Shown here in pieces: positions 33,935 through 37,142 of a DNA stretch of 64,000 bases. The stretch comes from Candidatus Woesearchaeota archaeon (GTDB lineage Archaea > Nanobdellota > Nanobdellia > Woesearchaeales > JAFGUC01). Under the pieces are notes generated by a model. It was given only the letters and a program-made list of their open reading frames with translations. It did no database searches and was not told where the DNA came from. The position numbers were made by a program, and so were the translations under genes. Where the stretch lies: contig JAFGUC010000006.1 of assembly GCA_016938695.1 (NCBI GenBank), forward strand, positions 186,001-250,000. Direction: 5' to 3'. Position 1 is the first letter of the stretch. The number at the start of each line of letters is the position of its first letter.

Positions 33935-34001
33935 GTAATAATTATTACTTGTATATAAATCTTTCGATATGTAAACATTTATATATGTCATAATGTAAAC
34001 A
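33935..34001 (+). promoter_or_regulatory. Promoter and likely operators of the RHH-led island
   Basis: A perfect 14 bp palindrome GTAATAATTATTAC (33935-33948) is followed by TATA TTTATATATG (33978-33987). The TATA element is flanked by two direct repeats of ATGTAAACA at 33969-33977 and 33993-34001, 24 bp apart. The gene that follows encodes a ribbon-helix-helix protein, and such proteins usually bind short repeats in their own promoters, so autoregulation is a natural inference. Confidence 0.5.
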
Positions 34002-34007
34002 AAATAT

Positions 34008-34169
34008 ATGGGAGATAAAAAAGATTCAAAAGAATTGGAGACAATTTCTTTTAGGGGGATCAAAGATAAATGGATTGACTTCACATATATTGCTAAGAAG
34101 AAAGGTCATAAGAATGCTTGGTCAGCATTAGAACCGTTAATTAATGAATTTATCAGATCTAAAAAATGA
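34008..34169 (+). CDS. Small ribbon-helix-helix (RHH) DNA-binding protein
   Basis: 53 residues. The layout is that of RHH/CopG-type regulators: a short polar head, a beta-strand (ETISFRGI), helix 1 (KWIDFTYIAKKKG) and helix 2 (AWSALEPLINEFIRS). The ATG lies about 30 nt after the TATA box at 33978-33987, so the mRNA is nearly leaderless. It heads the accessory gene set and has repeat sequences in its promoter that could be its own operators. It is 16 nt upstream of the next gene. Confidence 0.65.
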   Translation: MGDKKDSKELETISFRGIKDKWIDFTYIAKKKGHKNAWSALEPLINEFIRSKK

Positions 34170-34185
34170 AATGACTTAAAAGAAA

Positions 34186-34812
34186 ATGGTAGAAGATGAA
34201 CAAAAAAAGAATGATTTTCTGAATAAGAAATCAATTGAAATATCCTTAAGAAAATTTAATGACTTTGCATCTGATGTATTAAATTCAGATTATGATAATT
34301 TTAGTAATGCCTTCACAATACTGATGAATTTCTTTGAAACAGATTTTGTTTTTAGCAGATTACATAAAGAACTTTCATTAATAGATGTTAATTTTGACAA
34401 ATGGTGGTCTGAAAGACAAGCAACAGGAGGTTCGTTCATTGGAAGTAAACAATGGATTTTACCAATAAACGAAGATGAAAGAATTGCAATTCTATTTAGA
34501 ATTTGTCTTAAAGTACAATCAGGCGATATTGATCCTGCTCAAAATATAGGTAGGGATTTCTTTGCAAAACGCTATGATAATCTTCATGACTATATTCAAC
34601 ATTTCACTGAAAATGTAGTAAGTCCTCTTTTAAGATCAATAGGATATAAAGTTGAAGAAATAGCTGAAAAAATAGAATATGACTATCCCGATGATAGACT
34701 TATACCATCGAATATCATTGTTTTTTATCAAGATAACTCTGTTACTGTCAAGGATACAGAATTTAATGCAGATTCAATAATTGGTGAGGGAAATAAAATT
34801 GACAAAAAATAA
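34186..34812 (+). CDS. Uncharacterised island protein A, helical with beta-repeat tail
   Basis: 208 residues; no family assigned. The protein is mostly helical. A central segment (DKWWSERQATGGSFIGSKQW, then ILPINEDERIAILFRI) looks like a conserved loop-and-helix core. The last 25 residues switch to short beta pattern: NSVTVKDTEFNADSIIGEGN followed by KI. The next protein begins with a clearly related pattern, suggesting that the two proteins dock through it. No catalytic motif or membrane segment was seen. No strong ribosome binding site precedes the ATG, so it may be translated by coupling to the RHH gene. It overlaps the next gene. Confidence 0.7.
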   Translation: MVEDEQKKNDFLNKKSIEISLRKFNDFASDVLNSDYDNFSNAFTILMNFFETDFVFSRLHKELSLIDVNFDKWWSERQATGGSFIGSKQWILPINEDERIAILFRICLKVQSGDIDPAQNIGRDFFAKRYDNLHDYIQHFTENVVSPLLRSIGYKVEEIAEKIEYDYPDDRLIPSNIIVFYQDNSVTVKDTEFNADSIIGEGNKIDKK

Positions 34813-35413
34813 TTCAATAAATATTTCAGGCAAAACCTCTTTCAAAGGCGATGCTATTGTTGGTCATAGAAATAAGGTTTCAAAAACAAATTCCCCCACT
34901 ATTTCTGCTTCAGGAAGTAGTTCAGTTAATGTTAATATTCAAGATGGTGTAAAAAAATATAAAGGAGATAAAATAGATACGTGGATTTATGATAACTTGG
35001 CACCAATACTTATGGGGAAAATTGGTGAAAAGAAGTTAATAATTACAGGAGCCATCTCTTTTCCGATTAGTATTTTAGGAATATTCAGTTACTTCAAGGG
35101 AACTATGAATATAGAGAAATTCTTAGATTTCTTGCCTGGTTTACCATATCAACCAATTATCTATATTTCTATTGTTCTATTCTTCATTGGAGCTATATCC
35201 TTAGGAACTGTTGCATATTTTCATGATAGAAAATGTAAGAAATGTAACACACCCTATGCTTACGAAGAATCAAGATTGCCTGATATTGAGGAAGTAGAAA
35301 CTCGTAAAGGAACACGAATAACTACATTGAGACACTATAAATGTAAACATTGTGGACATGAGGATGATAGAGAATCCTCAACACTTATAGAAAAAGAAGA
35401 TAATTCAAATTAA
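34799..35413 (+). CDS. Uncharacterised island protein B: beta-repeat head, two membrane helices, zinc ribbon
   Basis: 204 residues from TTG 34799, which follows GTGAGGG (34784-34790) by 8 nt; the frame is open a little further upstream. The head, NSINISGKTSFKGDAIVGHR followed by NKV, closely matches the tail of protein A. A Ser-rich stretch follows, then two membrane helices at about residues 83-105 and 122-145 (SIVLFFIGAISLGTVAYF). The C-terminus is a zinc-ribbon-like domain with CKKC and CKHC about 44 residues apart. One end may thus face a partner protein and the other a nucleic acid or nuclease. The combination is not one I recognise. It overlaps protein A by 14 nt and ends one base before the nuclease gene. 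Confidence 0.7.
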   Translation: MTKNNSINISGKTSFKGDAIVGHRNKVSKTNSPTISASGSSSVNVNIQDGVKKYKGDKIDTWIYDNLAPILMGKIGEKKLIITGAISFPISILGIFSYFKGTMNIEKFLDFLPGLPYQPIIYISIVLFFIGAISLGTVAYFHDRKCKKCNTPYAYEESRLPDIEEVETRKGTRITTLRHYKCKHCGHEDDRESSTLIEKEDNSN

Positions 35414-35414
35414 A

Positions 35415-37142
35415 ATGGAATCATTAAATTATCAAGAGTGGCAAGATATCATAGGGGGGATAGATGATCGTCTATTTGAAGAAATATGTTATAGACTTCT
35501 TACTAAATTAGGATATGAAGGTGTAAAACCACGTGGTGGAAGTTCTGATGGTGGTAGAGATCTTGAGGGAATTAAAATAAGATTAGAAGGGGATGGTAAA
35601 ACAAAATATATAGAAAATTATTGGTTTGAATGTAAATGCTATTCATCGACCATACCTTGGAAAGAAATATCTGATAAATTACACTCTGCAAGAGATGAAA
35701 AGGTAAACTCATTTATTATAATGTCAAATCGAGGTTTATCCCCTCAAGCTCAAGATAAAGTTAAGAAGTATAAAGAAAGTTCTCCAGTAAGAGTTATAGA
35801 GTGGAGCGGATTTCCTTTTTTAGATATTTTATTTCAACATAAAGATCTTTGTGATTGGTATTTTCCAGGCTATGAAATTCCCTCAACACCTCCAAGCGAA
35901 ACAAAAGAAAAACACATTATTAAAGCATCGATGAATATCGGACAAGTTTTTGGTATTGAATTAGAAGCTAACATTGATAAAAAAATAGAATTAAATGAAG
36001 AAAATATACGGAAAATTATTTCTGACGCATTAAGAAGCGTAAATTATTCCAAATTAGGAATTCCAGATAAGGAAAAGTCTCAATTATATTCAAGTATTGC
36101 AATGACTTTTCTACAATTTGGTCATTCTTCGGATGCATTGACTTTTATTGATCATGCTTTAAGATTAGAACAAAGTACTAATAATTTAATTAACAAAGGA
36201 ATAATTCTTGAAAACTTAGATTTAATTGAAGATTCAAATAAACTCTATGAAGAAATTTTATCTTTAGAACCAAATAATTCAATAGCACATAATAATTTAG
36301 GTCATAATTACCGAAGACAATATGAACTAAAGAGTGCGTTGGATCATTTCAGTAAAGCTATAGAACAAGATCCAAATTATCTTACAGCAATAAATAACAA
36401 AGCACAAACACTAAAAGACTTAAAGATGTTTGATGAATCTCTTGCATTTGTAGATGAGCAAATTGATGAAAAAAGTTCGTTTGTTTTGCAAAAAACAAAG
36501 ATAGATGTGCTTTTAGAGGCTTTAGACCTAAAGGAGGCATTTCGTCTGAATGACCAATTATTAAAACTATATCCTAATGATATTGATCTATTAAACTACA
36601 AAGGAGTTATTTACGAACATAATGCACAATATCAATATAAAGAAAAATATCTTGAACTTGCATATGATGCATTCGGCGCAACAAGACAGAAAAATCCTAG
36701 ATTTATTCTTGCTATTAGTAACCAAGTTGTTTGTCTAATGAATAAAGGAAATTATGAGTTTGCAGAAATTATTGTCAATGAGGGATTTTCTCAAAATAAT
36801 AATGATCCTTTTCTTTTACATAACAAATCAAAGATTGAATTGTTAAAAGGAAACTTTTCAGTAGCATTAAATTTTGTAGAACGAGCCATACAAAAAAAGT
36901 CCTTAGAAAAATTTTTGTTAACTAAATGTGATGTGCTTCTGAAATTAAGAAAATATTCTGAAGTCGAAAAACAGTGTGATCGTATTTTGAAGAATGACTC
37001 AAAAAATTCATCTGCCTTTTTACTCAAAGCAGAATCTTTAAGAAAAAGACATGAACCAACAAAGGCGAAGCTACTCGTGAAGAAAGCAAATAAATTCCGT
37101 AGAAGCCCAGTAAGTTTACTTGAAGCTTTTAGCTTTATTTGA
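35415..37142 (+). CDS. Mrr-type restriction endonuclease domain fused to TPR repeats
   Basis: 575 residues. The N-terminal 150 residues form a PD-(D/E)xK nuclease of the Mrr_cat type: RLFEEICYRLLTKLGYEGVK, then GGSSDGGRDLEG with Asp49, and WFECKCY with Glu72-x-Lys74, followed by the typical SARDEKVNSFIIMSNRGLS. All catalytic residues are present. From about residue 200 to the end there are TPR-like helical repeats (for example AHNNLGHNYRRQYELKSALD and ISNQVVCLMNKGNYEFAE). Mrr-family enzymes cleave modified or foreign DNA; TPRs often serve as sensor or docking modules in defence proteins. It is the last gene of the RHH-A-B-nuclease run, tightly spaced. Confidence 0.85.
   Translation: MESLNYQEWQDIIGGIDDRLFEEICYRLLTKLGYEGVKPRGGSSDGGRDLEGIKIRLEGDGKTKYIENYWFECKCYSSTIPWKEISDKLHSARDEKVNSFIIMSNRGLSPQAQDKVKKYKESSPVRVIEWSGFPFLDILFQHKDLCDWYFPGYEIPSTPPSETKEKHIIKASMNIGQVFGIELEANIDKKIELNEENIRKIISDALRSVNYSKLGIPDKEKSQLYSSIAMTFLQFGHSSDALTFIDHALRLEQSTNNLINKGIILENLDLIEDSNKLYEEILSLEPNNSIAHNNLGHNYRRQYELKSALDHFSKAIEQDPNYLTAINNKAQTLKDLKMFDESLAFVDEQIDEKSSFVLQKTKIDVLLEALDLKEAFRLNDQLLKLYPNDIDLLNYKGVIYEHNAQYQYKEKYLELAYDAFGATRQKNPRFILAISNQVVCLMNKGNYEFAEIIVNEGFSQNNNDPFLLHNKSKIELLKGNFSVALNFVERAIQKKSLEKFLLTKCDVLLKLRKYSEVEKQCDRILKNDSKNSSAFLLKAESLRKRHEPTKAKLLVKKANKFRRSPVSLLEAFSFI

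Follow-up and report, generated by a model that had tools for sequence, protein, structure and literature searches.

Introduction

Can a sensor protein recruit a membrane protein encoded by the adjacent gene through a short β-motif that both of them carry, as in the prion-like relays that set off cell death in fungi and some bacteria? This question is raised by four tightly packed genes in a 64-kb stretch of DNA (the window; positions 186,001–250,000 of contig JAFGUC010000006.1) from Candidatus Woesearchaeota archaeon, an archaeal metagenome bin of 1.50 Mb in 85 contigs. The second and third genes encode proteins A and B, the first a putative ribbon-helix-helix (RHH) autoregulator and the fourth a nuclease in which an Mrr-type domain is joined to tetratricopeptide repeats (TPRs). 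An earlier note on this DNA had noticed that the tail of A matches the head of B, and had proposed a docking or co-assembling motif within a four-gene defence module with the nuclease as its output. Comparable arrangements are known from the bacterial amyloid pairs BASS1–10, in which motifs shared by neighbouring genes lie at the C-terminus of a Bell effector and at the N-terminus of an NLR (PMC8086366; PMC7889193). One experimentally aggregating peptide among the published systems, Methanothrix KSRFDQRGQKVIGQQINVAGDATLP, is archaeal (PMC8086366), and a 2021 review asks whether signalling amyloids exist without NLRs and extend to Archaea (PMC7889193).

Cognate motifs at three loci

Comparison of A with B by BLASTP gave one significant stretch, between the last 30 residues of A and the first 35 of B (E = 0.001), which contains the motifs QDNSVTVKDTEFNADSIIGEGNKIDK and KNNSINISGKTSFKGDAIVGHRNKVSK, respectively. 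Archaeal genomes were searched for relatives of B. At two of the loci so found, G243 and G248, the B gene is overlapped by its direct upstream neighbour, which shares with its own B a motif that differs from that of the window: NDSITIGSENEFAGDASFGD/DSSIRIGSKNKFQGDTVIGD in G243 (E = 1e-4, BLASTP) and NSIGVAIGDNINQNVNI/KSIGVAIGKNIKQNINV in G248 (E = 9e-6, BLASTP). When the three partners were scored against the three B heads, the cognate combination came top in each row and column (54 for the window, then 58 and 74, versus 48 or less), and at each locus 0/3000 shuffles of either side reached the observed score. When 107 adjacent same-strand gene pairs from the window and the fetched loci were ranked, the three cognate pairs took places 1, 2 and 3. 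Identical residues have the same third codon base in 4/10, 4/14 and 7/12 cases; this agreement is not raised, and the match does not look like the product of a recent duplication. No motif matched Pfam in profile searches.

The partners themselves are diverse. No relation of the G243 partner (A′) to the A domain could be detected, and the treatment of A and A′ as one family was dropped for that reason. The G248 partner, a fragment, matches positions 178–251 of the PADLOC profile PDC-M14B (E = 5.9e-6), with its motif just ahead of this part. Judged from these domain comparisons, the effector-like B is constant, its partners vary and the motif is the common element. The match seen in the earlier note thus stands, and its reading as a specific docking or co-assembly element is supported by matching within three loci, by sequences that differ between loci and by two partners that are not detectably related.

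Protein A and its N-domain

Residues 12–167 of A match positions 3–148 of the 267 in PDC-M14B (E = 2.9e-11), and the C-terminal part of this profile (positions 178–251) is absent from the window A in the PADLOC search. A match of PDC-M14B in G049 was rejected as chance, the gene being phosphoenolpyruvate synthase-like. An A-domain protein of Polaromonas sits between pglX and pglZ in a BREX locus, and other relatives adjoin DISARM genes. Through the Polaromonas protein the A domain is linked to bacterial proteins in which an A-type domain is followed by a TIR domain of the CAP12/Pycsar kind (PF10137, E = 1e-40 to 6e-37). Direct alignment of the TIR-linked domain with A covers 126 columns at an hhalign E of 1.6e-4 and a probability of 51%, from only three sequences, and the two share a [GS][GS]xxGSxxxxxP stretch. 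The PF10137 domain itself is absent from A in profile searches. These comparisons suggest that A is a modular protein, in which the motif stands where bacterial relatives carry a fused TIR effector. The link to defence drawn in the earlier note gains support for A from the PDC-M14B match, the bacterial TIR fusions and the BREX- and DISARM-associated relatives. The structure model of A is all-helical and of low confidence (56), so its structure matches are meaningless; none with a solved structure was significant.

The Polaromonas BREX cluster (L019:3437-8786) contains, besides the A-domain protein, an Xre/RES toxin–antitoxin pair. On an IMG/VR viral contig (L050:580-2759), a gene for a 94-residue helical protein adjoins that of a protein with an A domain and a TIR domain, followed by one for a 243-residue protein of Abi-like appearance.

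Protein B and its family

The mechanically called open reading frame (ORF) of B begins at TTG 34781 (210 residues). TTG 34799 (~204 residues) lies 9 nt after the Shine–Dalgarno-like GGTGAGG at 34783–34789 and is the likelier start. As the earlier note had described, B carries two hydrophobic helices, at residues ~84–107 and ~120–149, and a zinc ribbon, with CxxC pairs at residues 152 and 188. In a model built from four sequences (mean predicted local distance difference test score, pLDDT, 68), residues 1–54 are disordered, the helices span residues 83–107 and 125–149, and the three-stranded ribbon reaches a pLDDT of ~82–91. Disorder of the motif in the monomer is what prion-type motifs would be expected to show, but it does not prove assembly. 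B matches no PADLOC family.

By its sequence features, B defines a small, rare archaeal family with a variable Gly/Asn-rich β-motif, two membrane helices and a zinc ribbon. Its members are those of the window, G243, G248, G062, G316, G215, G322 and part of G226, and matches lie in Pacearchaeota and Woesearchaeota records, the hosts being DPANN-type archaea. The two hydrophobic helices are shared throughout, and the zinc ribbon with its invariant cysteines is found in all members but G322. A VKAxDGxKxTTxR-type stretch is common to the closer members, and in every full-length one a Gly/Asn/Ile/Val-rich segment directly precedes the membrane helices. The B proteins of G062, G316 and G322 have an additional N-terminal domain of ~100 residues fused in cis; it is winged-helix-like by a MarR-type match in G062 and by its look in G316 and G322, and it takes the place of the putative sensor in these fusions.

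Searches near G243 and G248 yielded no further B loci, and A and B as single queries brought nothing new from viral and genome collections. A match of B on a Legionella plasmid proved to be an Mrp ATPase and was discarded as chance. Two weak relatives were excluded from the family: G135, with a transmembrane (TM) segment and a zinc ribbon but no visible motif, and G095 (TM, zinc ribbon and HNH). In the latter (L034:8659-9363), a TM helix and a zinc ribbon weakly like those of B are fused to an HNH nuclease domain.

The Mrr-TPR nuclease

The fourth protein has the intact Mrr domain and the TPRs claimed for it: Mrr_cat (PF04471) matches residues 18–120 (E = 4.7e-11), D49 and E72-x-K74 are in place, and residues ~220–550 form TPRs (TPR_17, E = 2e-15). 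Its nuclease domain is shared with Mrr-type restriction endonucleases, Lamassu LmuA and PDC-M58A, from which it differs by ~350 residues of TPRs. In PADLOC the nuclease domain gives an LmuA match of only E = 3.5e-5; no SMC gene lies beside the nuclease, and no LmuB or LmuC partner is present in the window. The linker and an HEPTKA-type C-terminus recur in full-length relatives in G221 and in G269, where the N-terminus is cut by the contig end. In G221 (L046:899-5303) the relative is flanked by hsdM and hsdS in a type I restriction–modification locus, where it could serve as an accessory or replacement nuclease. In G269 (L047:2560-6038), another locus of defence-like character, the Mrr-TPR gene is followed by one for a helical protein that contains a QQVFNISQTQNQSMDI segment (P0022, weakly similar to the G248 partner, E = 0.05) and then by a PADLOC Aga_Nuclease match (E = 2.7e-10).

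A fixed four-gene module with the nuclease as its output, as the earlier note had it, was not supported. The co-occurrence of B homologues with Mrr-TPR genes that it had suggested checking was found at none of the other B loci, no Mrr-TPR relative examined adjoins a B gene and the closest relatives of the nuclease lie elsewhere, either between hsdM and hsdS or next to unrelated genes. The nuclease is probably a separate co-regulated defence effector, or at most an add-on, which is probably co-transcribed with the conserved A–B core but lies outside it.

Proposed mechanism and alternatives

The proposal made here builds on the genes seen at these loci, their domain make-up, the cognate matching of motifs at three of them and the cis-fused variants. 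We put it at about even chances that A and B constitute a two-protein signalling module, probably antiviral, in which A senses and clusters and the motif nucleates B at the membrane. A would be the sensor or adaptor, its helical N-domain responding to an infection cue or clustering on a viral component. Clustering would bring together many copies of the C-terminal motif, which would recruit B via the same motif at its N-terminus by homotypic β-stacking, most likely into a small amyloid-type fibre. The membrane helices and zinc ribbon of B would then oligomerise, and the membrane would be damaged or permeabilised, leading to dormancy or death. Whereas bacterial relatives of A hold the effector (TIR) in cis, here it would be recruited in trans through the motif, and locus-specific motifs would provide insulation from cross-talk. 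From sensing and fibre formation to membrane damage and the antiviral role, these are steps that we infer.

The wider claim, that DPANN-type archaea possess NLR-independent amyloid signalling in which a modular sensor domain is coupled to a new class of zinc-ribbon membrane effector by interchangeable, locus-specific prion-like motifs, is put forward tentatively, as a possibility that we consider somewhat doubtful. The window locus and its relatives offer concrete, testable cases for it: three cognate motif pairs in tiny archaea, together with what appears to be a new family of membrane proteins. If the claim is true, a sensor domain can exchange a fused TIR effector for one recruited by a short motif, which bears on the rewiring of modular immune systems.

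Of the known systems, BASS1–10 resemble A–B in several ways: the genes adjoin and overlap, one protein ends and the next begins with a short Gly/Asn-rich β-type motif, the several families of such motifs match only inside their own locus, and one partner is membrane-active. They differ in their NLR/NACHT receptor and Bell domain. Profile searches found no NTPase domain, and hence no such receptor, in A, A′, B or the G248 partner fragment; and unlike a Bell (HeLo-like) effector with a C-terminal motif, B has an N-terminal motif, two membrane helices and a zinc ribbon. The motif ends are also reversed, the known amyloid systems pairing an effector C-terminus with a receptor N-terminus, whereas here the C-terminus of the sensor-like A is paired with the N-terminus of the membrane protein B. 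A–B is therefore placed outside the NLR/Bell class, although it would be BASS/HET-S-like if our reading holds. The hosts differ as well, being multicellular bacteria or Methanothrix-type archaea for BASS and small DPANN-type archaea for A–B. HET-S/NWD2, HELLP/PNT1 and RIPK1/RIPK3 (RHIM) follow the logic proposed here, with a clustered receptor, motif templating and a membrane effector, but their effector and sensor domains have no sequence relation to A–B, in which templating is proposed. PDC-M14B and PDC-S35/CAP12-Pycsar TIR (PF10137) share the N-domain of A, and the G248 partner corresponds to the C-terminal part of PDC-M14B; PDC-S35/CAP12-Pycsar TIR has a TIR effector, which the motif would replace in A. 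In SpbK a helical N-domain that clusters on the phage portal is fused to an effector (PMC12847820); this domain is a 94-residue four-helix bundle unrelated to A, and the likeness is one of analogy.

The reversed motif ends weigh against the proposed amyloid mechanism, as do several other points. Only three loci have matched motifs, and one of them (G248) is cut by a contig end. The B-family protein of G215 (L057:5551-6117) has an N-terminal GNIIQGDKQDFSGSNVAGRDIIQ motif and no matching neighbour; its partner may lie elsewhere in the genome. The model of B has no significant match among solved structures and none to the fold of a known toxin. In favour of the mechanism, both proteins of the G243 pair contain one copy of the RHIM-type core [IV]x[IV]GxxNx[VILMFY] (ITIGSENEF and IRIGSKNKF), and these are its only two copies in 192 genes (61,656 residues). 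As a pattern chosen after the sequences had been seen it is a lead and not a test, and the window pair has only a looser core, [IV]GxxNx[IV].

Homotypic β-assembly, probably of amyloid type, would most simply account for two neighbouring proteins that both retain the same motif instead of having complementary surfaces, and for motifs that change from locus to locus. Were the motifs instead to pair as short β-strands or a small β-solenoid, tethering A to a membrane sensor or scaffold B in a stable non-amyloid heteromer without templated polymerisation, their match and co-variation would be explained equally well, and repeated G-N-D-rich strands can also make small β-solenoids. Two copies of one motif, however, point to homotypic stacking, and the cis-fused B proteins retain the motif though they need no partner; we regard such a heteromer as rather unlikely. 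That tail and head match by chance, or as the trace of a recent duplication of ~75 bp, is suggested by their adjacency in the DNA but has very little credit against the shuffles, the third codon bases and the same matching in distant genomes with different motif sequences.

Two further readings bring in the flanking genes. B could be a membrane toxin silenced by A via the motif, with the RHH-like protein repressing the operon. B is indeed a small membrane protein, a small regulator heads the operon with repeats around its TATA box, and in G243 an AbrB-like regulator and another small protein stand upstream of A′ instead; but the N-domain of A, fused to a TIR effector in bacteria, would serve for sensing or clustering rather than inhibition, and the cis-fused B proteins have no antitoxin, which leaves a toxin–antitoxin pair improbable. 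It is distinctly improbable that A and B act as sensor/adaptors to activate the nuclease: against the 1-nt spacing, the probable co-transcription and the G269 protein that follows an Mrr-TPR gene and whose QQVFNISQTQNQSMDI segment and C-terminal helices weakly resemble the G248 partner stand the lack of Mrr near any other B, the place of the closest full-length relative between hsdM and hsdS, and the nuclease linker, in which no third copy of the motif was seen by eye. We retain the recruitment of B by clustered A as the preferred reading.

Locus organization

The four ORFs lie on the + strand in a tightly packed block, as the earlier note had stated, flanked by a ribosomal/lysS block and other housekeeping genes in the ORF list of the window (Table 1). 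The G+C content of the block is ~0.27–0.33, versus ~0.35–0.37 in the preceding ribosomal genes. The B gene overlaps the end of the A gene, and 1 nt separates its stop from the start of the nuclease gene.

Table 1. Features of the four-gene block (window coordinates)
Feature	Position	Strand	Basis
Promoter/operator candidate: two ATGTAAACA direct repeats (33969–33977 and 33993–34001) around TATA-like box TTTATATA (33978–33985)	33969–34001	+	Sequence, 9-mer count; function inferred
Putative RHH autoregulator, 53 residues	34008–34169	+	ORF; RHH identity by appearance only
Protein A, 208 residues, PDC-M14B-like sensor/adaptor	34186–34812	+	PADLOC PDC-M14B, E = 2.9e-11
A, helical N-domain, a relative of the domain that precedes CAP12/Pycsar-type TIR in bacterial proteins	34219–34686	+	Profile/alignment; low-confidence all-helical model
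A, C-terminal β-motif QDNSVTVKDTEFNADSIIGEGNKIDK	34729–34806	+	Match to B head
Protein B: β-motif, two membrane helices, zinc ribbon	34799–35413 (start approximate)	+	ORF; start inferred from Shine–Dalgarno-like GGTGAGG
B, N-terminal β-motif KNNSINISGKTSFKGDAIVGHRNKVSK, disordered in monomer model	34805–34885	+	Match to A tail; structure model
B, two predicted membrane helices, residues ~83–107 and ~125–149	35027–35227	+	Sequence, model
B, zinc ribbon with CxxC at residues 152 and 188, modelled as a three-stranded sheet	35228–35392	+	Sequence, model
Mrr-TPR nuclease, 575 residues	35415–37142	+	Mrr_cat, E = 4.7e-11, and TPR; relatives elsewhere

The operator-like repeats reported upstream were found again, as a ATGTAAACA pair flanking TTTATATA. 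Over the whole 64 kb this 9-mer has three copies on the + strand and one on the − strand. The TATA-like box lies ~25 nt upstream of the first ATG, where the TATA box of a leaderless archaeal transcript would be expected, and box and repeats are the probable promoter/operator of a leaderless operon. The RHH regulator was not confirmed: in profile searches the 53-residue protein had no Pfam or NCBIfam match at E ≤ 1, and its putative identity is drawn only from a strand-helix-helix look and the repeats. In G243 (L005:2881-3329) its place upstream of A′ is taken by small overlapping genes for an AbrB-like regulator and a 76-residue protein.

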